DNA of 29,806 nt from IMG/VR virus record IMGVR_UViG_3300009008_001514, positions 1 through 29,806 of that record, one strand, 5' to 3'. Each line of letters opens with the position of its first letter. Position 1 is the stretch's first letter. A program made the position numbers and the translations under genes. This stretch comes from a virus. Shown piece by piece: positions 7,794-27,629 of this stretch. The notes below the pieces were generated by a model that worked only from the letters and a program-made list of their open reading frames with translations, was not told where the DNA came from and made no database searches.

Positions 7794-7802
7794 CGTCCTG
7801 CG

Positions 7803-7830: not shown

Positions 7831-7920
7831 GTTGCTTCCAAGGGGAGCCGTCATTAAACTCGTTCTCGAACTCATCAAGAACCATTGTCAACAGAAAAGC
7901 AAAACAGAGGATATATTTTT

Positions 7921-10188: not shown

Positions 10189-10211
10189 TACTTACTTGTT
10201 AACATTATAGT
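10157..10211 (+). promoter_or_regulatory. Direct repeats flanking a palindrome: operator or promoter region
   Basis: CTTACTTGTTTACATTA (10157-10173) and CTTACTTGTTAACATTA (10191-10207) are identical at 16 of 17 positions and 34 bases apart. Between them ATTAGTTGT and ACAATTAAT (10170-10189) form a nine-base inverted repeat with one mismatch. TTGACA at 10178-10183 with TAACAT 16 bases further on is a plausible sigma-70 promoter, whose -10 overlaps the second repeat. The arrangement suggests a repressor or activator controlling the genes from 10212 on; a replication origin is an alternative. Confidence 0.5.
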
Positions 10212-10454
10212 ATGTCTAGGATAAGAACAGTAGATAAGGCATTTGAAATAAAGATGCCTAATGCAGGTGAGCGGAATTTATACGCTATTACCGTTTTGGT
10301 GAAGTCTTACACACCTGAGACTGCTATTCAGGACTTTGGGGAAGCAAAACTTTACGGTAAGTATTTCTCCATTGACAGGGTGGATGAGGTTACGGATGAA
10401 GACGGCAATATCGGGTACGTCCCTCATCAACCTGAATCGAAAAACCCTAACTAG
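10212..10454 (+). CDS. Hypothetical protein, 80 aa
   Basis: The ATG lies six bases after the second repeat copy and has no Shine-Dalgarno site, so the true start could be the ATG at 10254 (MPNAGERN). The product reads as a small alpha/beta domain (LYAITVLVKSYTPETAIQDF, then YFSIDRVDEVTDEDGNIG) with a polar tail. It is the first gene downstream of the 10157-10211 control region. I do not recognise the family. Confidence 0.6.
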   Translation: MSRIRTVDKAFEIKMPNAGERNLYAITVLVKSYTPETAIQDFGEAKLYGKYFSIDRVDEVTDEDGNIGYVPHQPESKNPN

Positions 10455-10464
10455 AGCGAAATTT

Positions 10465-11307
10465 ATGGGAACACAAACGCAGATACGCACATCAGTTGGT
10501 GGAATCTTAGAGACAGATGGGCGTAGAAATTACAATGGCAGTGGTTCTAAAAAAAGAATCAAAGAGCAGGTCTTTGTTCTCACCCCAGATCAATTTGACA
10601 TCTTCCCAGATACTGCAAATAGGCTGGGGGAAGGCATAGCCAACTCTCATATCTCTTCTCTCAAGAAGAGCATGAAGGAGTCTGGTTTTATGCAGAGTCA
10701 GCCCATTATTGTAAACGAAGCGATGAATATCGTGGACGGGCATCACAGGTTCGTCTCAGCGAAGGAACTTGGCATTCCTCTTTTCTATAAAGTGGTCCCC
10801 GATGCTGATTTGTACAAATACGCAAAAGCAACATCCGTTGTTAAGCGTTGGACTAGCAACGATTGGGCAGAGTACCACGCCGACAGTGGTGACGATGACT
10901 TCATTAAGCTGAGAGGCTTGATGATCGAATTTGATCTGCGTTTGACTGTAGCAGTGCCACTGGCTGAAGGTACGTCAACAAGAGATCGTAGCTCAACTGT
11001 AGTAAAGATGCGTGACAAAAAAATGAAGGTTGCCAGTTGGGGTGATGCTTTCAAGAGAGCGAAGATGCTCCGAGAAGTCAGATCCATCTCCGCAAAGACA
11101 GCTTCTTATGCTTCTTATCAGAATGCTTGGGTGTCTGTTTCTCGTCATGAGAAATACAACCATCAGCACTTCATGAATAAACTAAGAAGATACGTGAGCT
11201 TCATTCGAGAAGAACCTACAACGAGCCTGTACATCGAAGCCATCCTGAACGTCTACAATTATAGAACGAAGAAGGATAACAAAATTGGTTACAAAGATTT
11301 TAAATAA
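10465..11307 (+). CDS. ParB/Spo0J-like nuclease-fold protein, 280 aa
   Basis: Residues about 37-110 match the ParB N-terminal fold: a strand and P-D-Q-F turn, then a helix (SHISSLKKSMKESGF), QPIIVNEAMNIVDGHHR, and an A-K-E-L-G-I-P helix turn. The DGHHR box (residues 91-95) is the nucleotide-binding or catalytic box of ParB-like proteins (G-x-R-R in ParB itself). No HTH of the plasmid ParB type is evident in the rest, which is basic and helical. In phages, such proteins are annotated as partition proteins, CTPase/nucleases or methylation-linked factors. I chose ATG 10465; the frame reads back to 10336 but would overlap the preceding gene. A truncated parA lies 1.3 kb downstream. Confidence 0.7.
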   Translation: MGTQTQIRTSVGGILETDGRRNYNGSGSKKRIKEQVFVLTPDQFDIFPDTANRLGEGIANSHISSLKKSMKESGFMQSQPIIVNEAMNIVDGHHRFVSAKELGIPLFYKVVPDADLYKYAKATSVVKRWTSNDWAEYHADSGDDDFIKLRGLMIEFDLRLTVAVPLAEGTSTRDRSSTVVKMRDKKMKVASWGDAFKRAKMLREVRSISAKTASYASYQNAWVSVSRHEKYNHQHFMNKLRRYVSFIREEPTTSLYIEAILNVYNYRTKKDNKIGYKDFK

Positions 11308-11316
11308 AAAAATGAA

Positions 11317-11568
11317 ATGACCTTCCGATCAAAATTAACATTAATCATGTCTGAGAAAGGTCTGACGATTCAGGATCTCTCTGACTTACTAAAGGTGTCA
11401 CGTGTGTCTATTTCTCACTGGAGAAACGGGAAACGTACACCCTCAACTGGGAACCTTAAGAGGATGTCTTCTCTTTGGGGCATCCCTGTCGATTCTCTGC
11501 TGGATGATGATCTCGACTTGAAATCATTTCTGGCAACAGAGACTGCCCAGCGAGAGGTGGCAGTATAA
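11317..11568 (+). CDS. XRE/Cro-type HTH regulator, 83 aa
   Basis: Residues 7-62 form a five-helix HTH of the lambda Cro/CI class: LTLIMSEKGLTIQDLSDLLK, then VSRVSISHWRNGKRTPSTGN, then LKRMSSLWGIPVDSLL. The second and third helices (LSDLLKV, VSISHWR) are the DNA-reading pair. It has no CI-like dimerisation or cleavage domain, so it should be a simple Cro-like repressor, probably of early or operon genes. It ends just before a terminator at 11611. It is the best candidate in this window for the protein that reads the recurrent TGTTWWCAT sites, but that is inference. Confidence 0.85.
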   Translation: MTFRSKLTLIMSEKGLTIQDLSDLLKVSRVSISHWRNGKRTPSTGNLKRMSSLWGIPVDSLLDDDLDLKSFLATETAQREVAV

Positions 11569-11610
11569 TCAAACACTCGCAGGTTAAGTCATATGCTACA
11601 TCCTCTACGA

Positions 11611-11644
11611 GAGCAGGGGGAATCATGAACCCCTGCTCTTGTTT
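11611..11644 (+). terminator. Rho-independent terminator
   Basis: GAGCAGGGG (11611-11619) and CCCCTGCTC (11630-11638) form a perfect nine-base stem, extended by A-T at 11610/11639, with a ten-base loop, followed by TTGTTT. It lies between the HTH gene and ssb and would insulate the regulator transcript. The remaining bases of the 11569-11667 gap show nothing else clear. Confidence 0.7.
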
Positions 11645-11667
11645 CAACTTAAAACCAGAGCAATCTT

Positions 11668-12033
11668 ATGTTATGTCAAAACATGTGCGTATTTAGCGGA
11701 AGGGCTGGGAAAGACCCTGAAGCGATCTCAGTCGGCGAGAATACTGTGTTGAAGTTCTCTTTGGCGATTGATTCTCCGAGAAGAAACCAAGACGGAACTT
11801 GGGACAGCAACACCAGTTGGGCTGATTTAGAATTCTGGGAGCAGGGTGAAAGCTCTGTCGGCAACCGTATCCGCAAAGTCAGTAAGGGTGATGTTGTTTC
11901 GGTTCATTGTACATACCGTACCAACAAGAAAGAAATCGATGGTGTTAATCGAACCTTCTACTCGTTCAAGATTCAGAATATCTATCTGAGCGAGTTCCCT
12001 AAACAAGAAACCGATGATATCCCTTATGAATAA
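11668..12033 (+). CDS. ssb: Single-stranded DNA-binding protein (SSB), 121 aa
   Basis: SSB coats single-stranded DNA in replication and recombination. The OB-fold order is visible: VFSGRAGKDPEAI, NTVLKFSLAIDSPRRNQ, WADLEFWEQ (the family's W-x-x-V-x-x-W/F segment), KVSKGDVVSVHCTYRTN and the last strand FYSFKIQNI. The C-terminus ends DDIPYE, close to the DDDIPF tip through which SSB recruits partners, though one or two residues longer. It is shorter than bacterial SSB because the Gly/Gln linker is absent. It lies after a terminator and is followed by an overlapping gene. Confidence 0.8.
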   Translation: MLCQNMCVFSGRAGKDPEAISVGENTVLKFSLAIDSPRRNQDGTWDSNTSWADLEFWEQGESSVGNRIRKVSKGDVVSVHCTYRTNKKEIDGVNRTFYSFKIQNIYLSEFPKQETDDIPYE

Positions 12034-12560: not shown

Positions 12561-12580
12561 ATGATAACATCTGTTATCAT
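12561..12580. promoter_or_regulatory. Perfect 20-base palindrome (operator) at the parA start
   Basis: ATGATAACA and TGTTATCAT are exact inverse nine-base arms around a TC spacer. The palindrome overlaps the first possible start (12561) and ends in the ATG at 12579. A protein bound here would block the beginning of the parA fragment, as in autoregulated partition operons. The right arm recurs exactly at 5501-5509 in the recombination-operon promoter. Confidence 0.6.
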
Positions 12581-12812
12581 GTCTATTATTACTGTAGGTA
12601 GCACCAAGGGCGGTACTGGTAAATCCACGCTTTCTTCTAACCTTTCTGTATTGCTTAGCACGAATGGTTATGAGACTATGTTGGTGGACACTGATCGCAA
12701 CAACAGTGTCTCGCTCTGGTCAAGGATGCGGGGCGAGAATGCCGTCAAACCCCGTATCCCTACTGTCCTTCTTCTGGACAAAACCCCAGTAACGGAGCTG
12801 GTTAATACCTAA
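12579..12812 (+). pseudogene. parA: ParA/MinD-type ATPase, truncated after the first third
   Basis: The product starts with the deviant Walker A of ParA proteins, KGGTGKST (residues 10-17, signature K10 plus K15), then a helix, YETMLVDTDRNNS and LWSRMR, the usual order in ParA. It stops at residue 77 after KTPVTELVNT, just where the family continues into the Walker B strand (VVIDTPG-like). Full ParA proteins are about 200-260 residues, so two thirds are missing and no ATPase should form. I prefer ATG 12579 (MSIITVGS) over the in-frame 12561. The stop overlaps the giant gene's 3' end by 11 bases. Confidence 0.75.
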
Positions 12813-15800
12813 TCTCTGGTGGGGTTGACTCCACTACAGCTCTCAGCATAGCGTTTCTCATCTGAGTCAGACGGTTGGTTCTCATGTCTTTCAGGTCTGT
12901 ATCTATATTCGGATCTGATCTGATTCGTGCTATCTCGTTGTTAATCTCCGAAGCTCTTCTCTGTATGCGATTAAAACCCTTGCGATACTGAAGCATCAAT
13001 TTCTTCTTCTCTTGTATCGACTGTGCCCTCTCGATCTCACCCAATTCCCTCAGCTCACGCATATCACTGAATACTCGGTTCATCTCTCGGCTCATATAGT
13101 AGAACTGCGTATTGAACCTAGAGTTAACCCTTCTTTCTGGATCGTCTACAAACCTTTTAACAATAGGTGCTCTTGTGATCTGGAACCCAGTTGGTAGGGC
13201 TGTCTTGCCTTGCGCCACTCTAGTGATAGCATCTGCACCCGCCAGAACATTCGCCCCAATCCACCCCCCAAAACCATTCACAAGATACTGTATCTGCACT
13301 GGTGAGTAGGTGACTGCATCCCAAGGTATGACAGAGTGTACCGACTGTGAAAGCAGAGTTGAGAACTCACTGGTGTAGGCATTACGCCTTTCTTCTGGGG
13401 ACAGGTTCTGCATTGATATTGATTCAATCGGACGATCTGTAAATGGGTTTTTGTTCGAGTAGATATCCATAAACGGACGGAAGAGAGCAGGACGTACATC
13501 AAATGCAAGTGTCCCTTCCAGAGCATGCAGTAGTCGATCAGCAAACAGCTTCCCGTGTACCTCATCATCAGCGAACTGTTCTACTCCTCTTTCCACTAAT
13601 GTAGCTATGACCCCAAGCTCGAATGCTTTCGGGATGCGGAAAGCAACATCAGTGAATGGCATCTTAAACCAATGGTATGTATCCCTGTCCCATTCTTCTC
13701 TTGATTCAAAGTCTGGGTCGTCTTTGTACATTAGGTACAACGCAGTTGAAGCCATCACATATCCTCCCAGCGTTGTAATTAACCTCATCCTCTGCGATGG
13801 GTCAGCATACGCACGACCTAACTTGTACAAACCCTGTAACCTTGCATTCAAGAACGGGCTGAAGCTGGCAAGATACTGAATCACCCCAAAGCTCCCAGTC
13901 GAGCTGAAGTCCATCAGATCCCTTGCGTTGTAACTTGCTTCGAGATGGGACATACCCTGCTCTCTGAGTCTATCGTAAAGTGCGACTCTGTTTACGTTCT
14001 CCAGTCTGTTGCCTAGCTTGTCATACTTATCAATGGTTGCTCCCCAAAGCCTTTTGCCAGCCTGAAAAGCCACCTTCTGCAACCTGTTGAAGTTTGAGAA
14101 TCCCTCTGGAGAGTCGAGAACAAACTCTTTGTTGATACCGGCCTGAATCATTCTCTTGGCGATATCTGGATCTGCCCCGTTCATAGCGCCGAACTGGAAC
14201 ATCCCCCCACCTGCTGTCAGATACGCCTGTGTCTTAGCATCCTTTTCAGTTCCCTTCCAACCGTTGTAGATGTTTGCAAATGGGTTAAGGCTTGTCCCAG
14301 TTACAGCTACAGAGTTAATCGAGTCTCTTATAAGGTTGGCAATCTTAAATTCAGGACTGAAAGTTACAGAATAGGTGAACCACCGCTTTGTTCCCCTCAT
14401 TATGTTGAAGAAAGGATTGTCTCTGCCGACTTGGTTAAGGGCCTGCAAAGATTCGAGATAGAGCGGATCTTCAATGTAATAGTATTGTCTTTTGCCCCCT
14501 TCCATCACGTGGACAATTTGTCCCCCGTCTGGGACGATCTCTTGATCAAACATCCTTTTTGCTGGGAAGTCTTCAGGTCCCACCGCCATCGGGGTGGGGA
14601 GATTTTTCATCTCTTTGATTGCTTCTTTCCCAGCGTTGTTCTTCAGAGATGCGCTGATCAGATGGTTCCAGTTCATCAACGTGTTCTGAAGCAGATCACC
14701 CAAATGTTTATCAGACCCTTTCAGCTTCTGGTAGGCCTTTTGATTGACAAGACCACTCAGTGTTCTTGGCCCTGAACCCGATTGATTGTCTTCCTCAAGC
14801 AATCTGTAGAACGGTACATAGAATTGGTTCTCCCATATCTTTGCTGTCTCATCATCGATAAGCCCAGACTTTCTGGCGATCTCTGTGACTGAGTTCTGTA
14901 TTGCTTTAAAGTCTTTGTAAACATCGTCAAACAACTTCTCACGTGATACAGATTCTCCCGTCAGAGCATTTATTGTCTGTCCTTGGTTGAACGTAAGAGC
15001 AGTCTCCATTTCTTCGTCAGAGAGGAACTTTAAGGCATCACGTGGGGTCTTTGGGTCATTCTTCAAGTCTCTGTGACGTTGTGAAGCAATCCAACGCAGG
15101 AACACATCGAGATCATTCCCTAGAGGGCTTAACGCTTCGACCAGACTCTTGCTGTCTGGGTCTACGGTTATAGCTCCATCCTCATCCATACTGATGGTTC
15201 CGTATCTGAACAGAGCATCCAGCGGACCATCTGAAGAGTTGGACATTCTTGCTAGGATATATGCTTTGACGCTCAATCTCTTGAGTGATGCAAACTTGTC
15301 GAATACCCCCTGTCTAAGTTTCATTCCTATGTCATGAAACATGAACTCAAGCTTGTTCTTGAGCGTCTGCCCTGCAAGCGGGTTTCCGAACTGAGGTATA
15401 TTAAATACGCTTGCCTGCTCCGCTGACATCCAGCTAGGTGCGGTCGAGTCTTGTTGCCTGCGTGAGATGATTGGACGGTCAGCGTCTGGGGCTATGCTAT
15501 AGCGGACCTTACGCATCTCTGGGGTGTATTCTTTTGTAAGTGCGCCAAACTGCTCATCCAGAAAGACAAGAATCGCATCATCCTGACTCCGTATGCTTTC
15601 TCTCTCATACACAAAGTTTAGTGGAGCATTTTTCGGTTTGTTTAACTCAAGAATATTACTTTCCTCGAAGCGATACTGTTGGTCACGAGCTTCCATCTCG
15701 CCAAGGTTTCTTTGATACTGTGCAAACGGTTTAAACATGTTCGGCATCAGTAACTTTAAATCAAGCCTTGCCTGCTCAGCTTCTGTAAAGAAGTCATCAA

Positions 15801-18800
15801 GTAAATTTTTAACGTCTACATCATTATCAAAATAGTATTCGCTGGGTTGCCCTTTCTCTGCTTTAATTTTTACAGTATATCCATCACTGGTTTTTTCAAT
15901 ATTTTCGTACAGGTTTGTAATTGTTTCGTCTAAGAACTTAGACTCCATAGAGAAGTAACTGAGGAACCTTGGGTTCCTGTACAATATATTTTCGTAGGCA
16001 TCACGTAATACTTTGCTTGGGGACTTCTTTGCCCGTATTGTGCTTTGAAAATGTCTGTATACAACCTCACCTAACGTAATCTGATCCGATGTATCTATTA
16101 TCGCATTAAGCTGTTGCCAGTCTTGCGTATATGCGTGTGTTAAAGCATCAGCTCTTTTGTGGTCAAACGGGTCATAGTTACCCTTTCCGCTTGCCCCCAT
16201 AGCAAAACCACTAAAGTCCTGTATTGCATGCGTTAGCTCATGAAGTATGACGCTTCTCAAGCTGTCATCGAATTGAGACTTAGGGCCTACATGAACCAGT
16301 TTTGGGTTGACGTAGATCGTCTGACCTAACTCATCGTATGCACCCAGACCCAGTATGTCTGTTCGGAACACAACACGATGGTTCATCATGATTTCAGGGA
16401 ATCTTTGCTCTAACTCTTTGTGGCGTATGATATCCAGAAGCTCGAACTCCCCATCACGAGCGTTGAACTTCATCAGCTCGTAATCGTCTATCTCATCCTT
16501 GTACTTACTCATCTCCCCAGTGCGATGCAACTGTAGTAAATCTTCTACAGACTTATTTACTGGTTCAAATTCTTTTTCCAAACTTTTGTTCAGAAAATTC
16601 TTATTAATTAGTAAGACAGGGGCCCCATCTTTGTCGTAGTCTGGGATCTCAAATCTCCACCCTCCATCACGTAGCATATACCAACCACCGAGCATTCCTC
16701 TGTTCTTCCTTGACCAGTCAGACGCTTTAATCATATCCTTTCGGGATATACTGTTTCTTGCAGAATCTGTATCCCACTCATATGGCTGTATAAACTTCCC
16801 ATTGAGCTGGGTTCTCATGTAGTCAGAGAGCTTTTCTCTGGCTACTTCCAAGTTCAGTGACTCTTTGTTTGAAAGCCTAGCTGAGGATGTTCCGAGTGAG
16901 TAACGGATACTGTTTGCTTCTGGGAAGATGGTTGAAGCCTGCTCTTCTGTAATCGGTTTAGGTGTGAATGTGGCATCATAACGTGGGTCTGATGCCACTC
17001 TGGGGTTGTCTCTAAACTTCTTCTCAGCTTGTATGACAAGGTTGCGGATCTCTGCATCCGACATTTCCCTGCCGAAGACTCTGGAGAAGAAATCTTTAAT
17101 GATCTGGAGTATTCGTTGAGCTACATTCTGGTTTGCTCTCCCCTCCGCAATTTCAGCTATTAGCTCTTCAGTGGCTATGCGTTCGCTTACGCCTAGTTCT
17201 TTTGCTTTTCTTCTGACATCAAGTTTTCTTTTACTAATTATTTCATCTAAAAGTTGGTTGAAACTTCGCTCTCCGAGAAACTGCTTGATACCGTAATGCC
17301 CAATACTCTCGTGGAACAGGATTGCTCTGGCAGTGTTCTGGTCACGTATGTTTTCCGAGATCAGAAGTACGGTATTGTCATCAATGAGCGCACCTCTGGC
17401 ACGTAGGTCGATGTCATACCCAGCCTGCTTTGCGTCCTCAATGGAATCGAATACCTTATATTTGAGCATCCTTGCCCCAACAAAACGCTGAGTGAAACGT
17501 GCTAGTTCCTGCACTACTACTGCTGATGGAATGCCCCTCCCGACATCCTGCACAGGTGCTTGGCTTAGCTTCCTTACGTCAATATCTGCTTGGGTTCTGA
17601 ATGAAGGCTGAATAAGAGCCTTGGCAAACTCCTGCAACTTCTTCGTCTTGATGGCTTTACCGCCTTCAGGTTTAAAGTTGATTTTGTAGATTACATCGAC
17701 TGGCTGGTTGTTGTTCACACCCTGAAACTTGTCCTGCTTTGTAAGAACAATATTCAGTGTTCTTGTCCCCGCATCCGAAGTCTGCATGACAGGGATATCT
17801 TTAGGTGTGATTCTCTCGATGAAGTCATCTGGGAGAAACTTGTCGTATTCGCTCCTCCCGAATACCCCAGTATTGATGTCTATGTAGGCATCACGAACAC
17901 CAATTTCTTTGATGTCCTTGATCATGTCTTCAAACTCAGCAAAGGCTGGGGAACCTTTTACTGGGTAGTCTTTTCTTGTTATGGAAGATAAAGATGGCTG
18001 ACCGTTTTGCTGGAAGCTTGCGACCTTGACGATATCTAGGACTTCGTTTTCAAGCTTCCCTACCCTCACCAGATCGGTTAAGGAATTCACGCCGAGATAG
18101 TTTCTGAATATATTCCCTATGTATTCATCGCCATATGTGAACTCAAGCTTCTCGTCTTGTATCCCTATAACGGGGATGCGAACACCTAATTCTTTGTCTG
18201 CATAATCAATAATCTTTTCGGCTACAGTAGGGGGCAGGTCAACGGATTTACCTTTCTTTTTATTGTAGGCAATATAGTCTTCTGCTCTCTTTTCTGTTCC
18301 CTTCTGCATCGTGAGGTTCTTGATGTCCTCAACGGTTCTCACAACACCATCATTCCTAGCGTTCTTGAGTGCAGATACTTGTTTATTGTTAGTGAGCCCG
18401 AAGATATTCTGTTGCTTGCCATCGTCATCTTTAAAGACAACCAGCCTGTTGTCAGCAGTCTCATCGAACTGTGTCTCAACTTGTTGTACTGCTACCTCTG
18501 CTTCACCTTCTTCGGTAAACCCAGTCGTTTTTTCTGTTACCTGTTCGTCAGTGTCTTGCAGTCTTGATGGGTCTGCTTTCTTCTCTGTTGTTTTGGCAGG
18601 TACTATTCTTTTCTTTGGTCTGGTGCTGGCTTTGGGTGGGGCCTTCTCCTTCGCTTTCGGTTCTTCAGCCTTTACTTCCTTTTTCTTTTTCCCTGCATCT
18701 ATACCGCCTGCTGATTTTTTAGGGGGAAGCTTATCTACTACTGGGTCTATTATAGATCTTAGTTTTTCAATATTTTTCTTCAGATTAGCACGAGTATCTT

Positions 18801-21800
18801 TTTTGCCATTAGACACTGGTCCAAACCCTAACCCCTTGGCAAACAGTTTTGATAGTGCCTTTACACCAGAGTCTGTATCGACTTGCGGTGCTATAACATC
18901 AGTCAGCTTGTTTTTATTTGCTGTGTCATTCAGTAATTCAGCAATCTGTTTTAAGGCAGGGCTGTTGTAATAAGCATTAATCTCTGCTTGAGTTCCTTTG
19001 TTGAACCAACCTTCGTTTGATATCCCAAGGATCGGGTAGAACTGCCCAGACTTAACATTCTTTTTCCCACCCATACCACTGGATAGATAGAACGGAACAA
19101 CTATACTGAAGTTTTTCTTCGACTTACCACCATAGATGTCTTGATTTATCTCAAGTAAAACAACAGTCCTCCCGTTTACCTCCGCAACAGGACTGACCAG
19201 TCCATTCTCCAGTCTCATTTCTACTGGGCGAACGCCTTTTGCCTGATACAAAGAAGCGATCTTTTTTCTGATCTGTCTAATATTCTTCTCCCACCCCTTC
19301 AGATCAGACTTACCGTCTTCCTTTTTTACCTCTTCCTCTACTTTTGTTTCAGCAGGCTTTTCAGGTTCCTTTGGTGGGCTAGGTTCCTTCTTTCTAGTTC
19401 TTCTGGGTTTTGCGTCTTGCTTTTTAGCTTCTGGGGTTGGCTCTTCTGTCTTTTTAGCAGTATCTTCCTCAGCAGTTGCTCTCTTAGTATCATCTTGCTC
19501 CTCAGCCTGTGCGGGTTTCTTCTTTTTGGTTGGCTGTTTCGGCTTTGCAGTCTCTTGTGCTGGCTCTTGTACAGTTTCTTCCGCAGGTTTTGTCTCAGAT
19601 GCAGGGGGTTTCTTTGTAAGAGTGATGGTTTCTTTATCACCAATCTTGGTGATCATCTGTTCCTGTTCAAGTTCAGCTCGTGTGAACTTGTCTATGGGTC
19701 CTTTGTTGTCGTGGAAGGTGGTTTCAGTAATATTGCCATCATCATCTCTCTGCATGTCAAAACGAGAGATGTTCGGGTTTCTTTTTACTTTATCAGCACG
19801 TTCTTGCAGGGGGCCTGCTAGGGGCCTGCCCTCTGGGGACGGTGGTGGTGCAGGTTCTTGTACAGGTGCGGGTTTAGCTTTAGGTGCGGTAGCAGGTTTA
19901 GCTTTAGGTGTAGGTGAGGGCGCTTTCTGTCCGATTTTTTTCCTCAGAACTTCTTCGCTTCCGTCCTTGCCTTGCTGTTCTCTTGCTCTTCTTTGCCATT
20001 CTTTTGCTTCTTTCTCAGCCTCTCCCTCCTTTTGGGCTTTTTGTTTCTTTTTATCTGTAGCAAAAGCAACCAACTTTTCTTGCTGGGCAGATGGTTGCTC
20101 CTGCCCCTCTTTCTTTTTGGTTCTAGGTTTTGCAGATGGTTGTTCAGCCTTCTGACCAGTCTGACCTGCTTTGGCCTTCTGAGCTGGCTTAGCCTTCCGC
20201 TGTGACTTGGGTTTTAATACTTCTTCCGCATCGGCTTTTTGCCCGTCATCTTTCTGGGTTTGCTCTTTGGTTTCATCGTCTTGCCGTACATCACCTGACC
20301 TCCTTTTCTTAATTAGGTTGTTAACATAATTTCTGAAGGACTGGTCATTGTCATACTCATCTCTGAGTAGGTCTGCCTCTATCCTTCGTAATGCCCCTTC
20401 TGCGCTCTCTTGCTCTCTCTCCTGCTGTTGCCTTTGCTGTCTTCTTAGCTCGTTGGTGTCTACTGTAGTATCTTCCGTTATAGTCGGTGGGAAGAACTCT
20501 GCCTCTGTTTCTGGGGATTGCCTTGCTTCAGGTCCCCTCTGTCGAGCCGTTCGTGTAGCTCGATCTTGTGGAGTGTAGGGTTCCCCTACTGTTTGGAATC
20601 CTTCGTATGGGACAACTTGTTTGTAGGCATCTGGGTACGGGAGTTCTGTTCCTGTTCTGACTCTGGCAGATTCGCCCATAACTTCTTCAGCAGTGCTACC
20701 GAGATCCGCTTCCGCTCTTCGTCTGGTTCTCTCAGCAGGCGCATCAAAGCCTTGTTCGGCTTCGGTTTCTTCTCCCATTCGGAAGTCTCTTGGCGAGACT
20801 GCTGGCGGATAGAATGGTGTAGCAACTCGTGCCGAATCCTCCTGCATACTCCTTCGTGCATCGAGGTCAGACATAAGCGAATCCATTGCATCGGATGCGA
20901 GAGGATTGTCACGATGCATTTTGATCCACTGCTCAACCGCTTGCTGGCCTTCTGCCATAGCCTTCCCGAGACTTGTTCGTAGTTGATAACGAGTCTTATC
21001 TTTATCAACCCTATAGTCTGTGACGACTCCCTCATTAATGTCTTTAATCTCCTGCTCAACGACCACACGCTCCGCTGTACCCAAGTTATATCTGCTTCTG
21101 ATCGCCTCGAACTGAGATAGGTTCCCCGATTCAATCGCATCTCTTATCTCCTGCCGTATGTTCTCTCTGGGCAGATCACGCATTCTATTAACACCAGCCC
21201 TTACCGTCCCGAATGCGCCACCTGAAATAGCACCCAGACCTCCAGAATATAAGACGCTTCCGTAGTCTATATCCTTAATAATGCTGGCATTAAACCTGTC
21301 TGGGGCTTCACCCTCTGGATCTGTCTCAAGTTTTTGTATCTGGTATGCTGTCTCAGCTTGTTGTAGAAAGTCCTGCGCTCCTTCTTCAATACCCTCTGCA
21401 CCTGCTACAGCACCACCACGTATCGCTACATCTCTGACATTAGGGAGTGCTTTCCCTACTTTTGTTGTTGGGGTTCTAAATAGGAATGCCTTCCCAATAC
21501 GACCCATAGGGGTTTGGGAAGCAATAGCTGTGAGCAAGTTTGTAGGGGATAGAACATTCTGGCTGGCAATTGCCTGCCCAGCTTCTCTTGCTACAACAAG
21601 TTTAGCATCATCGATAGCTTTCTGATTATCTCCGTATATATCCCTAAGCCTTGCATCAATCTCTTCGTTTCTTCGGTTCTCATCATATGCAGATGCACCC
21701 TCCAATATAGGGTTTACACCCAATGTCAGAAGAGTCCCCGATACAATGTTGACCCCCGGAATCATCCCAAGAGCCGTACCGACAACCATTGGGGCAAGAG

Positions 21801-22218
21801 TGGTAGGGGAGCTTGCTATAACATCCCTGCTTACTCGTCCGAGGGTTGATTGTTCAGCAGGGATCTGAACCTGCTCTCCCTTGAGTGTCGTGATGTATCT
21901 GAATATTTCATCACGCTCCTGCGGGTCCTGCAGAAGGTCATTCGCAACCTGACGTATCTGGTTGAACTGAATCGCAGTGTTGTAACCCATATCGGTTACA
22001 GTACGATCCCACCATCCCCCTACAGTGTTGCTACGGTCCACATCTGGTGGTTCAAACCCGATGTATTCCTCTTTAATTAACCTTCTGCGCTCTTCTTCTT
22101 GAATACCAGCGTCATCTAGAAGCTTATTTATATAGTTAGATCGTATTGTGTATGCAGACCAAGGGCGGTTGCCCATTGGGAGACTGTCTAGTCTCTTTCT
22201 GAGATATGAATCAGCCAT
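12802..22218 (-). CDS. Giant polyvalent, probably ejected virion protein, 3138 aa
   Basis: This is the last gene of the late unit. Residues 136-172 and about 310-335 are hydrophobic and Gly-rich, as in virion proteins that cross membranes. Residues about 570-970 and 1170-1230 are Lys/Glu/Pro/Ala/Gln-rich linkers. A globular domain at about 980-1170 (GMGGKKNVKSGQFYP, NEGWFNKG) is unassigned. Zincin 1 has HESIGH at 1636-1641, with acidic TEELIAEIAE (1683-1692) as likely third ligand. Zincin 2 has HELTH at 1993-1997 in LLDIIRHKELEQRFPEI ... HELTHAIQDFSGFAMG, with GEMEAR (E2174, E2176), the pattern I associate with LPD23-like domains. Residues about 2260-2940 resemble LPD38. Known polyvalent proteins are injected with phage DNA and act in the host early. 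No Shine-Dalgarno is visible before ATG 22218. Confidence 0.8.
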   Translation of the reverse strand: MADSYLRKRLDSLPMGNRPWSAYTIRSNYINKLLDDAGIQEEERRRLIKEEYIGFEPPDVDRSNTVGGWWDRTVTDMGYNTAIQFNQIRQVANDLLQDPQERDEIFRYITTLKGEQVQIPAEQSTLGRVSRDVIASSPTTLAPMVVGTALGMIPGVNIVSGTLLTLGVNPILEGASAYDENRRNEEIDARLRDIYGDNQKAIDDAKLVVAREAGQAIASQNVLSPTNLLTAIASQTPMGRIGKAFLFRTPTTKVGKALPNVRDVAIRGGAVAGAEGIEEGAQDFLQQAETAYQIQKLETDPEGEAPDRFNASIIKDIDYGSVLYSGGLGAISGGAFGTVRAGVNRMRDLPRENIRQEIRDAIESGNLSQFEAIRSRYNLGTAERVVVEQEIKDINEGVVTDYRVDKDKTRYQLRTSLGKAMAEGQQAVEQWIKMHRDNPLASDAMDSLMSDLDARRSMQEDSARVATPFYPPAVSPRDFRMGEETEAEQGFDAPAERTRRRAEADLGSTAEEVMGESARVRTGTELPYPDAYKQVVPYEGFQTVGEPYTPQDRATRTARQRGPEARQSPETEAEFFPPTITEDTTVDTNELRRQQRQQQEREQESAEGALRRIEADLLRDEYDNDQSFRNYVNNLIKKRRSGDVRQDDETKEQTQKDDGQKADAEEVLKPKSQRKAKPAQKAKAGQTGQKAEQPSAKPRTKKKEGQEQPSAQQEKLVAFATDKKKQKAQKEGEAEKEAKEWQRRAREQQGKDGSEEVLRKKIGQKAPSPTPKAKPATAPKAKPAPVQEPAPPPSPEGRPLAGPLQERADKVKRNPNISRFDMQRDDDGNITETTFHDNKGPIDKFTRAELEQEQMITKIGDKETITLTKKPPASETKPAEETVQEPAQETAKPKQPTKKKKPAQAEEQDDTKRATAEEDTAKKTEEPTPEAKKQDAKPRRTRKKEPSPPKEPEKPAETKVEEEVKKEDGKSDLKGWEKNIRQIRKKIASLYQAKGVRPVEMRLENGLVSPVAEVNGRTVVLLEINQDIYGGKSKKNFSIVVPFYLSSGMGGKKNVKSGQFYPILGISNEGWFNKGTQAEINAYYNSPALKQIAELLNDTANKNKLTDVIAPQVDTDSGVKALSKLFAKGLGFGPVSNGKKDTRANLKKNIEKLRSIIDPVVDKLPPKKSAGGIDAGKKKKEVKAEEPKAKEKAPPKASTRPKKRIVPAKTTEKKADPSRLQDTDEQVTEKTTGFTEEGEAEVAVQQVETQFDETADNRLVVFKDDDGKQQNIFGLTNNKQVSALKNARNDGVVRTVEDIKNLTMQKGTEKRAEDYIAYNKKKGKSVDLPPTVAEKIIDYADKELGVRIPVIGIQDEKLEFTYGDEYIGNIFRNYLGVNSLTDLVRVGKLENEVLDIVKVASFQQNGQPSLSSITRKDYPVKGSPAFAEFEDMIKDIKEIGVRDAYIDINTGVFGRSEYDKFLPDDFIERITPKDIPVMQTSDAGTRTLNIVLTKQDKFQGVNNNQPVDVIYKINFKPEGGKAIKTKKLQEFAKALIQPSFRTQADIDVRKLSQAPVQDVGRGIPSAVVVQELARFTQRFVGARMLKYKVFDSIEDAKQAGYDIDLRARGALIDDNTVLLISENIRDQNTARAILFHESIGHYGIKQFLGERSFNQLLDEIISKRKLDVRRKAKELGVSERIATEELIAEIAEGRANQNVAQRILQIIKDFFSRVFGREMSDAEIRNLVIQAEKKFRDNPRVASDPRYDATFTPKPITEEQASTIFPEANSIRYSLGTSSARLSNKESLNLEVAREKLSDYMRTQLNGKFIQPYEWDTDSARNSISRKDMIKASDWSRKNRGMLGGWYMLRDGGWRFEIPDYDKDGAPVLLINKNFLNKSLEKEFEPVNKSVEDLLQLHRTGEMSKYKDEIDDYELMKFNARDGEFELLDIIRHKELEQRFPEIMMNHRVVFRTDILGLGAYDELGQTIYVNPKLVHVGPKSQFDDSLRSVILHELTHAIQDFSGFAMGASGKGNYDPFDHKRADALTHAYTQDWQQLNAIIDTSDQITLGEVVYRHFQSTIRAKKSPSKVLRDAYENILYRNPRFLSYFSMESKFLDETITNLYENIEKTSDGYTVKIKAEKGQPSEYYFDNDVDVKNLLDDFFTEAEQARLDLKLLMPNMFKPFAQYQRNLGEMEARDQQYRFEESNILELNKPKNAPLNFVYERESIRSQDDAILVFLDEQFGALTKEYTPEMRKVRYSIAPDADRPIISRRQQDSTAPSWMSAEQASVFNIPQFGNPLAGQTLKNKLEFMFHDIGMKLRQGVFDKFASLKRLSVKAYILARMSNSSDGPLDALFRYGTISMDEDGAITVDPDSKSLVEALSPLGNDLDVFLRWIASQRHRDLKNDPKTPRDALKFLSDEEMETALTFNQGQTINALTGESVSREKLFDDVYKDFKAIQNSVTEIARKSGLIDDETAKIWENQFYVPFYRLLEEDNQSGSGPRTLSGLVNQKAYQKLKGSDKHLGDLLQNTLMNWNHLISASLKNNAGKEAIKEMKNLPTPMAVGPEDFPAKRMFDQEIVPDGGQIVHVMEGGKRQYYYIEDPLYLESLQALNQVGRDNPFFNIMRGTKRWFTYSVTFSPEFKIANLIRDSINSVAVTGTSLNPFANIYNGWKGTEKDAKTQAYLTAGGGMFQFGAMNGADPDIAKRMIQAGINKEFVLDSPEGFSNFNRLQKVAFQAGKRLWGATIDKYDKLGNRLENVNRVALYDRLREQGMSHLEASYNARDLMDFSSTGSFGVIQYLASFSPFLNARLQGLYKLGRAYADPSQRMRLITTLGGYVMASTALYLMYKDDPDFESREEWDRDTYHWFKMPFTDVAFRIPKAFELGVIATLVERGVEQFADDEVHGKLFADRLLHALEGTLAFDVRPALFRPFMDIYSNKNPFTDRPIESISMQNLSPEERRNAYTSEFSTLLSQSVHSVIPWDAVTYSPVQIQYLVNGFGGWIGANVLAGADAITRVAQGKTALPTGFQITRAPIVKRFVDDPERRVNSRFNTQFYYMSREMNRVFSDMRELRELGEIERAQSIQEKKKLMLQYRKGFNRIQRRASEINNEIARIRSDPNIDTDLKDMRTNRLTQMRNAMLRAVVESTPPEIRY

Positions 22219-22236
22219 ATGTAAACAAGTAAGTAA
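22219..22236 (-). promoter_or_regulatory. TTACTTGTTTACAT element in place of a ribosome site
   Basis: The whole gap between the 971-residue gene and the giant gene is this element, read on the - strand as ATTACTTACTTGTTTACAT and touching the ATG. Its CTTACTTGTTTACAT core is identical over 15 bases to the copy at 10157. No Shine-Dalgarno-like sequence is present, so the element may control this gene's transcription, translation, or both. Confidence 0.45.
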
Positions 22237-25152
22237 TTATGGGGATGCTTTTAATCCTCTCGCTCTACCTTCAACGGCCCTAAGAAACATAGCTAATTTT
22301 TTGAGATACTTTCCCTTTTTTGCAGTTTCCGATATAGTTGCATTCCCCCTCCTATCAAACCTATAGCCACCTTTGTAGACCATACCAACCTCTATTGGAC
22401 TGTTTGGGTCTTTCCTGTATTTTTTTAACAAAGGCTGGATGTAATTTTTAACATACATCGCAACAGCATTTATTTGGGATTTTGCGTCACCATTTTTGAT
22501 CATGTTCCACATCATCCCTTGTGTGCCTGCTGTTTTTTCCAGTTGTCGATATGCTCCTATCCCAAACTGTCCAACACCAAATGAATCAGATCCGTCCTTT
22601 TGGTCGCCTTTTTTTACATATAAAGTATCGTAACCTTTCCCATTATGCCCTCTTCTATTTGATTCTGAGTCTATGATTGTTCTTAATATTTTAGCGTCTA
22701 CCCCATATACCGAAGAAGCTCTGACAACCAATTCGTCCATCTCTTCGGGGGAAACTGTACCTAAGTTTTTGACCTCTTTTTTGGTGTCTATGTTATTATA
22801 AAACTTCACTGCACCCAGCTTAACCTTATCTACCATAGCTTTATGCTTAGGGTCCAACCAAGAGGCGAGTCTTTGCGCCATTTTATCATTAACAAATTCA
22901 TCAGTCTCCTCTTCATCCATACCCCTCCCCTCGGCGACATTTTCTAAAAAGAATTTACCCTCTTGTGGGGTAAAAGTACCAAGCGTTAGTGGAGTTTCTT
23001 GTTCATCTTCATACCTTTGCTGGATTCTTGCTTCTAGTAAATTCTTTGGCCCTTTTACTCCTGAAATTTTTGTTGGGTTATCTGGGAAGGGTTTTGTTAG
23101 TCTATTGAGTTCTAATATAGCCTTGGATCTAATATCCTCCCCAAAGGATTTGGATTCTATCCCAGCCATCAACCCGCTCTGACCACTACCAGACATTTGT
23201 GACATTTTGTGATCCGTAGCCTGCTTTTGTATTTGGTCTGCAGTAAATTTTTTTTTAGCATCATCACTCCCAGTAGCACTACTGTAAATATCAATAATGC
23301 GGTTTGTAAAAGCCCTCTGTTTATGCTCAGCAGGGGATAATCCGCTATCAGATTTTTGCTCAAAGTATTCTGCATATTTGTTTTTAAATTCAGTTAAGCT
23401 GGAGAAAACATCTTCATCTTCATAACTACCAGCTATTCGGGGACTTTTGACAAAATCATTATCAAAGATTGCATCTTTAGTCCCGTCTGGATTGTAAACA
23501 TAACCCTGAAAACTATCTCGTGACTCAATATCTTTTACGGCTAACTTAGACGTTATTGCGAATGTCTCAGCATGTTCTTTCTCCTCTGCTTCTTTAACAG
23601 CCAATTCCTCATCAGATAAGGTAAACCCAGCTCTTCCTGAATCAATCTTCTCTTCTTTAGTAATTCGGTCTTGCCTTTCTTGTTCTTTGTAAAAATTCTT
23701 ATAAGCCCTTTCGTTACTCAATTTAGCGAGTAGTGATTTTTCGTCTTGGTCTTGTCTGGCCTGAACCACATATTCTGGTATCTCCCCGTACTGCTTTTCG
23801 TAGGTTTCGTAAAATTCAGGCATTGTTACAACAGCAGTATCCTCCTTGAATTGCGCATCTACGTCTGCTTTAGATGCAGGGATATCCCCAGTAATCATCG
23901 GGGTTACAAAGATGCCTTTCTTTCTGTCATACTTTGCGAGTGGTTCGGAGCTGGTTACCTCTCCAGCTTCCTTGGGAACAGCATCCAGAGCAGTTCCATC
24001 TACGAATGGGGAATCCTCCATAGCAAACATGCCAGTATCATTAGACGCTAAAGAATCAGCAGGCAGGGATACAACTTCTGCGTTACTACTGTCAGTTTGG
24101 TCATCCGTTGGTGTTCTTGATAATGTCGGCTGGTTTGTCCCTAAAATCGACTCCACTTCCCCTGTAAACAATGTCTTGTAAGATTCTTCTGGTTTTGCCC
24201 ATCCTTCTTTAGCAGGAGTAGTATTTTTTGCTATTCGTTCATCTGCTTTCCGAACCTCTTCGATCTCTTCTGATTGCGACTCTTCAGAGAGGGCTCTTGT
24301 CGGGGTTTCGTCCGCAAATACCCCCCTGAACTGACCTTTGCCTCCACCGCCATACTGATTAAGGAATCCTTCCCAAGTGATTTCTTGATGACCCTTATCC
24401 TTTAAATACTTCTGGTACTTTGCGTCAATTTCAGCTTCGGATAAAAGCATCTCCCTAGAATCATCTGCAAAATAGAAGTCTGGTATGGATTTCTTTTTTC
24501 CCTCCTTATCCTCCATCATTGACTGAAGTTCGGGATAAGAATAAGCCCTGTGGGTGGAGTCCTCACCGAATAATTCTTGTTTACCCCACTTCTTAAGGAA
24601 CTCTTCCTCTATTTCTTGATTACGATCATTGATGGGTTTGTATATATTCTTGAACGCTGTAGACAGTTTGGAGAGCCTGTCTGGGGTCATTCTTGTCGAA
24701 TCAATAAAGTCGTCATCTGTAAGTTCCTGCCCGTAAAAGGAGCCTTCCCCGAAATCTACATCCTCTCCTTTAGAGATTTTATCGATATACTTGTTCCTCT
24801 CTGATACAAGCTTTCTGACTGCGTTGGGCTTGAGGCTCCTCGATAGGATTTTAAAGCTGGAATCCTCCAACTGTAGGCGTTTAAAAGCGTTATCTTGTGC
24901 AATCTTGTCCTGCTCTATGTCGTACTGCATCGCCATCCCAACGCCCTTGATCGTTGAGTCGATCATACTGTTATAACGCTTATCCTCACGTTCTCTACGG
25001 CGTTGCTCTTCCTGTGCGTCAAGCATGTTCCGTTTGAACCTCGCTTGACCATAATCCATATAGGCTTGCCCAACCCTCCCAAAGGCTTGTGCCCCTGCGC
25101 TCACCAACCCAGAATACGGGTTCCCTCTAAGATTCCTAAACTGTACAGCCAT
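22237..25152 (-). CDS. Ejection protein with C-terminal lytic transglycosylase domain, 971 aa
   Basis: This is a likely internal virion protein that opens the cell wall during DNA entry, comparable in role (not in sequence) to T7 gp16. Residues about 808-930 form a soluble lytic transglycosylase (SLT) fold: the catalytic Glu in IIDSESNRRGHNGKG (E830), then DSFGVGQFGIGAYRQLE, the G-x-x-Q-F signature, and a helical C-terminus ending in AVAMYVKNYIQPLLKKY. The first 330 residues are helical and charged; 330-480 are a polar, Thr/Pro/Asp-rich linker. The ATG at 25152 follows AAAGGTAAAT. The gene lies between the 813-residue protein and the giant protein. Confidence 0.8.
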   Translation of the reverse strand: MAVQFRNLRGNPYSGLVSAGAQAFGRVGQAYMDYGQARFKRNMLDAQEEQRRREREDKRYNSMIDSTIKGVGMAMQYDIEQDKIAQDNAFKRLQLEDSSFKILSRSLKPNAVRKLVSERNKYIDKISKGEDVDFGEGSFYGQELTDDDFIDSTRMTPDRLSKLSTAFKNIYKPINDRNQEIEEEFLKKWGKQELFGEDSTHRAYSYPELQSMMEDKEGKKKSIPDFYFADDSREMLLSEAEIDAKYQKYLKDKGHQEITWEGFLNQYGGGGKGQFRGVFADETPTRALSEESQSEEIEEVRKADERIAKNTTPAKEGWAKPEESYKTLFTGEVESILGTNQPTLSRTPTDDQTDSSNAEVVSLPADSLASNDTGMFAMEDSPFVDGTALDAVPKEAGEVTSSEPLAKYDRKKGIFVTPMITGDIPASKADVDAQFKEDTAVVTMPEFYETYEKQYGEIPEYVVQARQDQDEKSLLAKLSNERAYKNFYKEQERQDRITKEEKIDSGRAGFTLSDEELAVKEAEEKEHAETFAITSKLAVKDIESRDSFQGYVYNPDGTKDAIFDNDFVKSPRIAGSYEDEDVFSSLTEFKNKYAEYFEQKSDSGLSPAEHKQRAFTNRIIDIYSSATGSDDAKKKFTADQIQKQATDHKMSQMSGSGQSGLMAGIESKSFGEDIRSKAILELNRLTKPFPDNPTKISGVKGPKNLLEARIQQRYEDEQETPLTLGTFTPQEGKFFLENVAEGRGMDEEETDEFVNDKMAQRLASWLDPKHKAMVDKVKLGAVKFYNNIDTKKEVKNLGTVSPEEMDELVVRASSVYGVDAKILRTIIDSESNRRGHNGKGYDTLYVKKGDQKDGSDSFGVGQFGIGAYRQLEKTAGTQGMMWNMIKNGDAKSQINAVAMYVKNYIQPLLKKYRKDPNSPIEVGMVYKGGYRFDRRGNATISETAKKGKYLKKLAMFLRAVEGRARGLKASP

Positions 25153-25187: not shown

Positions 25188-27629
25188 TTACGGGAGCCAG
25201 CCTTTACCGAATTCACTACCCCAGTTTGCACCAGTCATCGTGGCGTAGGGGTTGCCTTTCCCAAGCCAGAAACCAACAGCACCACCTGCAAGAGATCCAA
25301 GGAAGCTCTTCCTATTTCCGCTGGTGTTCGAGCTTTGAGCATTTCCTTGAGCTTGAATTTGGGCGATCTTTTCAGCAAGTTCTGCGCTTTTTTCCTGACC
25401 CCATTTCGACATACCTAATGACAGCCCAGACGCTAATTTGTGTTCTTGTCCGTACTGTCTGTCCATCGCTTCACCGAGTCTCACTTCGTTCAGTTTATGA
25501 GCAAGACCACCGTATGCGAAGCTACGTGAGAAAGCGTCTTGTCCCTGAGCGGCTTGCATCCCTGCGGACCTTAGCAGGGCACTTTGTTTCCCTTCGCCTA
25601 AGCCCGTATAGAAGGCCCCAGCCTGAGAAGCGGATTTACCGTAAAAACCACCTGACCTAGTTGCTAAATTACTATAATGTTCTCCAGACCTAGTTGCCAT
25701 ATCTGCCAGCATTGCTCCACGATTCGTAGCATCCTTACTATAGGCAGATCCTGTATCGATATTAGCACTATGTGCCTGCCCCAAAGCTCCTATTCTTAAA
25801 TCTCTAATTCCAGCCTTATGCTTGATTGAAGAAAGCTCAGATTGAGTCATGCCAGAAGCTTGATCGTATAACTGTGACCGCACTGCAGACCGCTGATCTC
25901 TCATTTGCATAGCGTCAAATAAAGACTGCCTTCTTGCTCCTCTTTTTTGTTCTGCTGTAGAAGTATCCAGAGCACTCATCATCCTTAGTGCAACAGGTGA
26001 TGTGGGAGACACACCTCTCTGTGTAAGCATCTGTGTGAGGTTCTTCTTTTGTGCGCTATTGTCTCTACTGATCTGATCAGCCTGCTGTGCGTACATCAGA
26101 TTCTGCATACCCCTTGGGGTACGTTTTGCTTCTTCAGCTAAAGAATCGATATTCCCACGATAGGTTCTCTGATCTTTTCTGATCGAGTCGATGTCTGACT
26201 GCAAACCAGAATAAAAGCCATCATCTGTGGCAAGTCTGGTCTGCTCCTGAGCTAATCTCCCAGCTTCATCGTAGTATCTGTCCCCTTTTGAAGCTAAACC
26301 TCTATAGGTTTGCTCAGCATCCGTTATTAGACGGGAATACTCATCCTCTGAAAGTTTAGAAAGTCTGCCGTACTTATCCTCCGCAATCCTAGATAATCTG
26401 CCGTATTCGTCTTCTGACTTCTTAGTTAAGCGATCATATTCTGATGTCCCAGACTTAACCCACTCCCCAGTGGCTTCATCATACGTATACCCTGTGGCAT
26501 CGCTGAACATTTTGTCATATGCACTGCCATACTTTTCTGATTTGTCTAGATATTTCTTCTCCAGCCCACCTGTAAATTTGCCTGTTTTAGGATCATAAAC
26601 CCCTCCGTAGTAATCCTGCTTAGCCCCCATTTCTTCCATAATTGAGGCACGTTCATCCACTGCTTTCTTGAGCAGGTCCTCATCATACCCCAACAAGCTT
26701 GCGTATGTTCTGGCCCCTACTGTTTTAGGCTTTCCATCTTTATCAATAATAGTCGTTGATCCTTCACCCCCTGCTCCCTGTACAGCACCTTCACCCACAT
26801 AAAAATACCTACCCTTTTCATCTACATGCCAGTGGTCGTTATTATCGTGCTGTAGCTTATTATCCTTATCGTGCCACCCGATAATATTCCCATCTCTGTC
26901 TTTCTTGAAGAATGTCGCTGGGTCAATGGTGATGGCATTGCCGTCAGCATCGGTGGTTTCAATATCATTTGCTCTGGGATCACCTTTTGTGGTGACTTGA
27001 ACAGTATAAGTATCCCCAGAGTTGGTATACCCAGCAGGGACAGTTCTTGTGGCTGGTGCTGTGGAGTCTTTTTTACTGTCTAGGTATGTGGATAATGAAT
27101 CTTGATTATTATAAAGCCCTTGAAGGGTTACCCCGTCTTTTTCATCCCACTCTATTGTTTCGGTTAGATTGGATGTGTTGAAGGTTGGGAGTTGGTTGTC
27201 GTTATTGTTGTCGTTTTTTTGCAACAGATTTTGTAATGCATCCGCTGGATGAGTGTCAAAATCAGTATAAGTATCAAGATCCTCTTCTACATAATCATCA
27301 ACTTCCTTTTCTATATCAAAACTATCTGTATTACTACTAGAACCACCAGTACCACCATATCCACCAGAAGCCCCAGAATAATCACCAGAAGGATTAAAGC
27401 CACCACCTGTCGTAGATGTGGACGAAGTAGAAGTCCCAGTTGATCCACCTTTGTTTACAGGGGGGAATGATCTAACCCCATCATAAGGTGTTGCTATATC
27501 AGCACCTCCAGCGTCTTTCAGCATCTGTATTTCACCCTTAGTGGCATAGATCAGCTCTTCATTTGTGCCTTGCGGGGTTTTGATTTTCTTCGGGACCTTT
27601 ACTGTCCCGCCCATTCCTTTGTATGCCAT
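25188..27629 (-). CDS. Probable internal virion protein with hendecad repeats, 813 aa
   Basis: The gene starts behind AAAGGTTTT. The N-terminal 50 residues (KGMGGTVKVPKKIKTPQG) are followed by a Gly/Ser/Thr-rich stretch (about 60-105), an acidic stretch and Asp/Thr-rich segments. Residues 398-463 and 627-692 hold two blocks of 11-residue repeats (YDRLTKKSEDE type and GEHYSNLATRS type), which form amphipathic helices. The C-terminus (about 775-813, SLAGGAVGFWLGKG, GANWGSEFGKGW) is a glycine-rich, membrane-prone segment. Position between tail genes and the SLT protein fits a T7 gp14/gp15-like ejection protein. There is no recognised enzyme domain. Confidence 0.65.
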   Translation of the reverse strand: MAYKGMGGTVKVPKKIKTPQGTNEELIYATKGEIQMLKDAGGADIATPYDGVRSFPPVNKGGSTGTSTSSTSTTGGGFNPSGDYSGASGGYGGTGGSSSNTDSFDIEKEVDDYVEEDLDTYTDFDTHPADALQNLLQKNDNNNDNQLPTFNTSNLTETIEWDEKDGVTLQGLYNNQDSLSTYLDSKKDSTAPATRTVPAGYTNSGDTYTVQVTTKGDPRANDIETTDADGNAITIDPATFFKKDRDGNIIGWHDKDNKLQHDNNDHWHVDEKGRYFYVGEGAVQGAGGEGSTTIIDKDGKPKTVGARTYASLLGYDEDLLKKAVDERASIMEEMGAKQDYYGGVYDPKTGKFTGGLEKKYLDKSEKYGSAYDKMFSDATGYTYDEATGEWVKSGTSEYDRLTKKSEDEYGRLSRIAEDKYGRLSKLSEDEYSRLITDAEQTYRGLASKGDRYYDEAGRLAQEQTRLATDDGFYSGLQSDIDSIRKDQRTYRGNIDSLAEEAKRTPRGMQNLMYAQQADQISRDNSAQKKNLTQMLTQRGVSPTSPVALRMMSALDTSTAEQKRGARRQSLFDAMQMRDQRSAVRSQLYDQASGMTQSELSSIKHKAGIRDLRIGALGQAHSANIDTGSAYSKDATNRGAMLADMATRSGEHYSNLATRSGGFYGKSASQAGAFYTGLGEGKQSALLRSAGMQAAQGQDAFSRSFAYGGLAHKLNEVRLGEAMDRQYGQEHKLASGLSLGMSKWGQEKSAELAEKIAQIQAQGNAQSSNTSGNRKSFLGSLAGGAVGFWLGKGNPYATMTGANWGSEFGKGWLP
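25554..25751 (-). repeat. Second block of 11-residue repeats (residues 627-692)
   Basis: Six consecutive 11-residue units can be laid out: GSAYSKDATNR, GAMLADMATRS, GEHYSNLATRS, GGFYGKSASQA, GAFYTGLGEGK and QSALLRSAGMQ. The bases are less similar than the residues, so this is an old repeat kept by selection on the protein. Confidence 0.6.
26241..26438 (-). repeat. First block of 11-residue repeats (residues 398-463)
   Basis: Six 11-residue units are visible: YDRLTKKSEDE, YGRLSRIAEDK, YGRLSKLSEDE, YSRLITDAEQT, YRGLASKGDRY and YDEAGRLAQEQ. Tyr at position 1 and Leu at position 4 mark the first five units. The first three are very close in DNA as well, which suggests recent duplication. Confidence 0.7.

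Follow-up and report, generated by a model that had tools for sequence, protein, structure and literature searches.

In phages of ordinary size, few proteins are as large as the giant polyvalent ones. The stretch of DNA that was analysed, referred to as the window, comprises all 29,806 nucleotides of IMG/VR record IMGVR_UViG_3300009008_001514, and a single gene accounts for nearly a third of this 29.8-kb record. A preliminary description of its product envisaged a toolbox of activities injected with the genome to protect it or to reprogram the host. The protein is a further LPD38 phage polyvalent protein, a known and widespread class of giant virion proteins that probably enter the host together with the phage DNA, and it carries one undescribed domain. 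Most members of the class combine a constant anchor with a built-in protease and exchangeable cargo. Two zincins, that domain (termed U) and the LPD38 anchor reside in one chain encoded in the late block, which is the multidomain make-up of phage-type polyvalent proteins.

A giant coding gene at the end of the late block

The giant ORF begins with an ATG at position 22218 and continues for 3138 codons on the minus strand to a stop ending at position 12802 (Table 1), confirming the 9.4 kb of open frame previously noted without a strand; the plus strand of 12802-22218 is interrupted by many stops throughout. Comparison with the related contig L002 shows that the ORF is coding and under purifying selection: the C-terminus has a dN/dS of 0.05, the HExxxH region one of 0.06 and the N-terminus one of approximately 0.1, the folded parts spanning 0.05-0.12, and the linker reaches 0.29. 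Selection against L002, together with conservation across the family, rules out a chance ORF. The C-terminus is 92% identical to that of L002, and the start codon is also retained there (MADSYLRKRLDSLPMGNRPW / MSEAYLRKRLDSLPMGNRPW). No clear Shine-Dalgarno sequence is found 5′ of the ATG (22205-22264, minus strand). Contig L001 represents the same phage, with 2 differences in 18.6 kb.

Table 1. Features of the giant gene and its upstream neighbours in the window.
Feature	Position	Strand	Evidence
Giant LPD38-family polyvalent/ejection-type protein, 3138 aa (P0001)	12802..22218	-	frame, Pfam/PHROG matches, dN/dS
Gly-rich N-terminal region, residues 1-470	20809..22218	-	common to L002, L011
K/E/P/A/Q-rich linker, residues 471-969	19312..20808	-	fastest evolving part, dN/dS 0.29
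Cargo domain U, residues 970-1165, core ~999-1104	18724..19311	-	profile match to phi14:2 g067
Second linker, residues 1166-1255		-	composition
Segment, residues 1262-1500	17719..18435	-	conserved in L002, 86% identity
HExxxH zincin-like metallopeptidase domain (zincin 1), residues 1501-1781	16876..17718	-	invariant motif, predicted fold
HESIGH active-site motif of zincin 1, residues 1636-1641	17296..17313	-	motif
Second zincin-like segment (zincin 2), residues 1782-2240, HELTHAIQ at 1993	15499..16875	-	motif; phrog_13543 E=1.1e-4
C-terminal anchor, residues 2277-3138, ~860 aa, helical	12805..15390	-	phrog_18222, family alignment
Pfam LPD38 (PF18857), residues 2834-3005, within anchor	13204..13719	-	E=2.6e-27
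971-aa upstream gene	22237..25152	-	weak PHROG matches
813-aa upstream gene, Gly-rich	25188..27629	-	conserved in L002 and L011

The gene is the last in a series, following two large late genes on the same strand with gaps of 35 and 18 bp. These neighbours had been described as probable ejection proteins; their position agrees with that designation, and their identity as such is weakly supported (E 0.001-0.01). The 971-aa protein has a weak match to the PHROG "internal virion protein with endolysin domain" of the T7 gp16 type (E=0.0099) and, at its N-terminus, to a minor head protein PHROG (E=0.0011). Its C-terminus looks like a lytic transglycosylase by eye, a resemblance that Pfam and PDB searches did not confirm. 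An ejection role for the 813-aa protein is suggested by position and composition only.

Convergent with this block is an early block on the plus strand (5768-12033) encoding a YqaJ exonuclease, ERF annealing protein, DnaB helicase, ParB-like protein, HTH protein and SSB. Near the ParB-like protein (10336-11307, E=0.007) lies a ParA/MinD-type ATPase ORF shortened to 83 aa (12561-12812, plus strand), in which the CbiA/AAA_31 match covers the N-terminal part only. This ORF runs 11 bp into the 3′ end of the giant gene before its stop, an identical situation being present in L001, and it may be a decayed gene or a mini-ParA.

Within the giant protein, the Gly-rich, hydrophobic N-terminus of ejection type and the central K/E/P/A/Q linker are both present as first described, the latter in two stretches. 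The sole strong hydrophobic 19-mer of the N-terminus is at residues 141-159 (KD 1.69), and an EGxxExxQ motif occurs at residues 275-282; 24/104 relatives also have this motif in their first 700 aa, where the background expectation is 0.01 per 700 aa. Part of the segment beyond the second linker (residues 1259-1349) is predicted to fold with moderate confidence.

A conserved C-terminal anchor

The presence of LPD38 in the C-terminal 700 residues, proposed from the sequence, is borne out by a Pfam score of 96.6 bits against a curated cut-off of 27. In a PHROGs scan, phrog_18222 matches residues 2277-3128 (E=1.1e-157), and the conserved unit is therefore about 860 aa long, far exceeding the 189-position LPD38 model of Pfam. 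When an alignment of seven phage homologues was run on viral and bacterial genome contigs, this C-terminus was found to be encoded by at least 580 viral contigs (580 of the 600 pattern matches listed are relatives), and 91 relatives were found in bacterial genome contigs. Among polyvalent-protein domains, LPD38 has been listed as phage-only (PMC5512222).

An AlphaFold model of the anchor based on 99 sequences is confident (pLDDT 85.1, pTM 0.86) and matches predicted giant phage proteins with TM values of up to 0.88. The PDB fold search returned no significant match (best E=0.67, TM 0.1), and searching PDB sequences with profiles of the anchor, the zincin and U likewise yielded nothing significant. 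A confident model lacking PDB relatives makes the anchor a good structural target. In a set of 102 intact relatives, strongly hydrophobic 19-mers (KD at least 1.5) occur 78 times at 300-399 residues from the C-terminus, and the feature is weaker in the window protein; conceivably, this recurrent hydrophobic helix just before LPD38 is a membrane-inserting element.

Exchange of cargo and the U domain

LPD38 is present in 33/33 family members scanned, and their N-terminal parts contain InPase, ART, LPD1/3/5/37, RadC, GGDEF, PBECR5, methylase, helicase, ddrB-ParB and other domains, of which domain scans detect none of those named in the window protein. Relatives share the anchor and swap the N-terminal cargo. 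GGDEF is carried by two of the LPD38 giants, and its occurrence in polyvalent proteins was already mentioned by Iyer et al. (PMC5512222). At closer range, the window protein and its L002 counterpart are 83-94% alike in the N-terminus, zincin 1 and the anchor, and the U domain forms a block within the linker that is present in the window and without a counterpart in L002.

U corresponds to the domain at about residues 980-1170 that the preliminary description had left unassigned. There is indeed a compact, non-linker segment at this place, and it proves to be no orphan, having matches in crass-like and other giant proteins. Its motif reads FYxSSGxGGK..WYPFFGFG..GWxxKG and no Pfam model matches it. 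A single-sequence search in viral contigs retrieved the same phage only, and a sub-threshold tblastn match (E=0.2) linked U to g067 of the crass-like Cellulophaga phage phi14:2. A profile that combined g067 with seven relatives from viral contigs, and left the window out, matched the near-identical L001 copy at 6.5e-17, the hhalign probability between U and g067 is 94.7%, and a reversed-sequence control gave no match. Eight aligned members retain R, Y, SSG, K, P, G, W, K, Y and L. An AlphaFold model of U, from an alignment without homologues, has pLDDT mostly below 50, and the best PDB sequence match of the U profile, an interleukin receptor at E=0.042, was judged to be noise.

The other carriers of U are ORFs of approximately 1500-2740 aa, several of them cut by contig ends, that are without LPD38 or the HExxxH zincin. 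Given the independent profile match, the occurrence in phi14:2 and other carriers, the absence from L002 and the lack of a Pfam model, U is a mobile, previously undescribed domain that occurs in giant phage proteins. Four of these ORFs (L182, L183, L185 and L186), of about 2500-2740 aa and in part truncated at contig ends, are essentially devoid of Pfam annotation and constitute a further unclassified group of phage giants; an HExxH motif is present in L183 and L185.

Zincin signatures and their coupling to cargo

Zincin 1 displays the HEXXXH motif with a downstream Glu by which the zincin-like MPTase of polyvalent proteins is recognised. In 36/36 aligned relatives, H1636, E1637, H1641 and E1685 do not vary, and a profile of the HESIGH region finds matches in 101 ORFs, with HExxxH or HExxH present in 101/103 matches. 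Residues 1559-1739 have a predicted fold with pLDDT mostly 83-96, for which no significant match to PDB folds was obtained within the composite model. An apparent likeness of the 970-2169 model to the RNA polymerase alpha subunit, involving many chains at only E 0.4-3, was judged to be noise.

Zincin 1 itself is not universal: the HExxxH profile alone matches 63/104 members, and most of the others have a different, HExxH zincin at the same place. Thus, 32/39 intact giants without the HExxxH type have a canonical HExxH ahead of the anchor and no more than 900 aa from it, where shuffled sequences would give 0.26. In a set dereplicated at 70% identity, whose 67 representatives were gathered by similarity to the window anchor and include a small cargo-free class, a zincin signature, which for part of the sample is the motif only and was allowed anywhere in the N-terminal part, occurs in 60/60 members whose N-terminal part is at least 900 aa long, with about 1 expected from shuffles. 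The N-terminal part is underestimated in L163, L167 and L075 through a spurious anchor match, and L097 is a possible short exception. No signature of either kind is found in the cargo-poor HTVC034P type (1230 aa) and Palmer (1678 aa), or in an ORF of 818 aa consisting of the anchor only.

A signature in all members with a long N-terminal part, and in none of the clear cargo-free ones, is the pattern that a processing protease predicts, and zincin 1 makes best sense as a processing module that goes with the cargo, not as an effector. Processing by such peptidases was proposed earlier by Iyer et al., who also described the HEXXXH set (PMC5512222); the near-obligatory coupling of the zincin to cargo length is added here. 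This chassis-protease-cargo rule is the most informative general result of the analysis, and it makes an active-site test of the release hypothesis of Iyer et al. possible in phage PTXU04, which encodes a relative.

That the metallopeptidases are instead effectors cutting host proteins was listed as possible by the same authors (PMC5512222), and the presence of two zincins within one protein would suit such a function, as would the restriction of zincin 2 (HELTH) to near relatives, which is expected of cargo. This alternative is nevertheless unlikely in light of the 60/60 count and of the exchange of zincin type at the same anchor-side place, a behavior anticipated for processing and not for an effector; these objections bear on zincin 1 more than on zincin 2. 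The zincin 2 segment is 77% identical in L002 and locally kept in the more distant relative L011. Residues ~900-1400 of the L011 protein are unlike the U domain and 1262-1500 segment of the window, and HELTHAIQ is retained at its residue 1853. Since L011 has HELTHAIQ and no U, zincin 2 is probably older than U.

As far as domain assignment reaches, the two zincins would be the sole recognisable enzymes in the giant protein, and its enzymatic diversity is low: Pfam and PHROGs scans find no methylase, helicase, ART, nuclease or nucleotide enzyme. The "several polyvalent effector domains" of the preliminary description thus reduce to two zincins, the first of them better viewed as a processing module, and protection of the genome or reprogramming of the host is unsupported as worded. 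With no effector enzyme recognised beyond the zincins, the toolbox reading is only partly supported; family and probable delivery stand, and the effectors were overstated.

A model for packaging, ejection and cargo release

The explanation that best accommodates these features, to which a probability of roughly 0.7 is assigned, is that of a phage-type polyvalent protein that is packaged into the head of a phage, probably one with a short tail, and leaves it along with the genome. The ~860-aa C-terminal module and the Gly-rich N-terminus would together form a structural or ejection chassis, encoded in the gene slot of T7 gp16. Between these chassis parts, the U domain, the 1262-1500 segment and zincin 2 would be carried as cargo on disordered linkers, and the anchor-side HExxxH zincin would cut the polypeptide, either before packaging or after ejection, to free the cargo from the chassis. 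To the family membership, domain order, zincin signature, coupling to a long N-terminal part and cargo exchange observed here, this model adds self-cleavage by the zincin and activity of the cargo in the host, both of which we infer.

Comparison with known phage systems

The gene-slot argument is clearest in Pelagibacter phage HTVC034P, whose gp44 (1229 aa) resembles the window protein in having an N-terminal hydrophobic region and the anchor (5.5e-109) and differs from it in having no cargo and no zincin. The gene order in this phage (tail tubular A, tail tubular B, acetyltransferase, internal virion protein [phrog_418, 1.6e-5], a 580-aa protein, LPD38 protein, tail fibre) parallels T7 genes 11-12-13-14-15-16-17, placing the LPD38 protein at the gene-16, or ejection, slot. 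Similarly, a "DNA ejection" gene (phrog_598, 2.3e-50) lies two genes upstream of the LPD38 giant gene of BA3. T7 gp16 and the N4 virion RNA polymerase are giant ejected proteins, each the last of its ejection set. Homology of the anchor to T7 gp16 was not found (hhalign probability 0.3%, hmmsearch E=0.32), a PDB fold search also failing to match, and the window protein was rejected as a gp16 homologue. Position, as seen in HTVC034P, thus supports the statement that the protein works like T7 gp16, and the hhalign value gives no support to its being a T7 gp16. Identity with an N4-type vRNAP was rejected as well, since neither the anchor nor the zincin profile is similar to N4 gp50 and no T7-like RNAP core or other RNAP domain appears in Pfam and PHROGs scans.

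PTXU04 gp25 (YP_009823381.1, 2197 aa) and its Xuquatrovirus relatives possess the same anchor (E=7e-196 to the profile); the predicted fold of the gp25 anchor matches that of the window at TM 0.80, with 25% identity. The same HExxxH zincin is present in gp25 (5e-47), and its gene ends the late block as that of the window does. Unlike the window protein, gp25 has another N-terminal part, no U domain and no second zincin. E. coli BL21 is without its type I restriction activity. In a screen with this host, gp25 was essential, being scored "Fit" with a large drop in plating upon knock-down (PMC11879866), and the need for it there is therefore not simply anti-restriction. By homology, the window protein is likely to be essential as well. 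The same study places gp25 in a set of genes that are toxic or interfere with infection upon expression (PMC11879866), and fingerprinting of excised gel bands from PTXU04 identified gp7, 10, 11 and 12, not gp25 (PMC6563267).

Essentiality in BL21, together with the reduction of HTVC034P-type members to N-terminus and anchor at the gp16 slot, could also be understood if the giant protein were mainly a virion or ejection-channel component resembling gp16, with central domains that are structural or regulatory and nothing acting in the host cytoplasm. The pronounced sensitivity of HelliStehle, a relative of PTXU04, to restriction systems (PMC11990801) is in keeping with such a role. Bona fide enzymes are swapped as cargo across the family, however, and the presence or absence of U between close relatives suits cargo better than a structural part, so that a pure channel component is a possible but distinctly less probable account than the packaged and processed polyvalent protein preferred here.

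Association with the virion, as originally suggested, gains support from more distant members. BcepIL02 gp70 has its zincin (1.5e-19) and anchor (1.8e-41) in common with the window protein, and 51 unique peptides of its counterpart JC1 gp69 were detected in virions purified with CsCl (PMC9144972). From homology to this virion-detected protein and from gene order, we infer that the window protein is packaged and ejected. At 4515-4667 aa, gp70 and gp69 also contain LT-like, methylase, helicase and LPD3 domains that the window protein is without. Methylase and helicase domains, and annotation of these two proteins as DarB-like, invite the idea that the window protein is a DarB/Bcep22-type anti-restriction protein guarding the incoming DNA. 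This is very unlikely: no N6-adenine methylase or SNF2 ATPase of the DarB type was found by Pfam and PHROGs scans, nor a ParB-like domain, and DarB identity was rejected because the anchor and zincin have no HMM similarity to P1 DarB.

The remaining parallel is with Crassvirales. Phi14:2 g067 has the U domain in common with the window protein and, unlike it, is without the LPD38 anchor and the HExxxH zincin; it is annotated as a virion protein from MS/MS, and its gene adjoins that of the catalytic RNA polymerase, g066. Tentatively, and at somewhat less than even odds, the LPD38 C-terminus may be a structurally uncharacterised fold that replaces T7 gp16 as the final ejection protein in many podoviruses, its giants acting as a general platform for protein delivery in which an obligatory metallopeptidase, conserved in position, frees exchangeable cargo, and U may have moved between this platform and unrelated crass-like virion proteins. 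The common U domain ties podovirus giants to crass-like virion cargo, and the large cargo proteins that crass-like phages store in head and tail and extrude partly unfolded (PMC10172136) offer a precedent for delivery of this kind.
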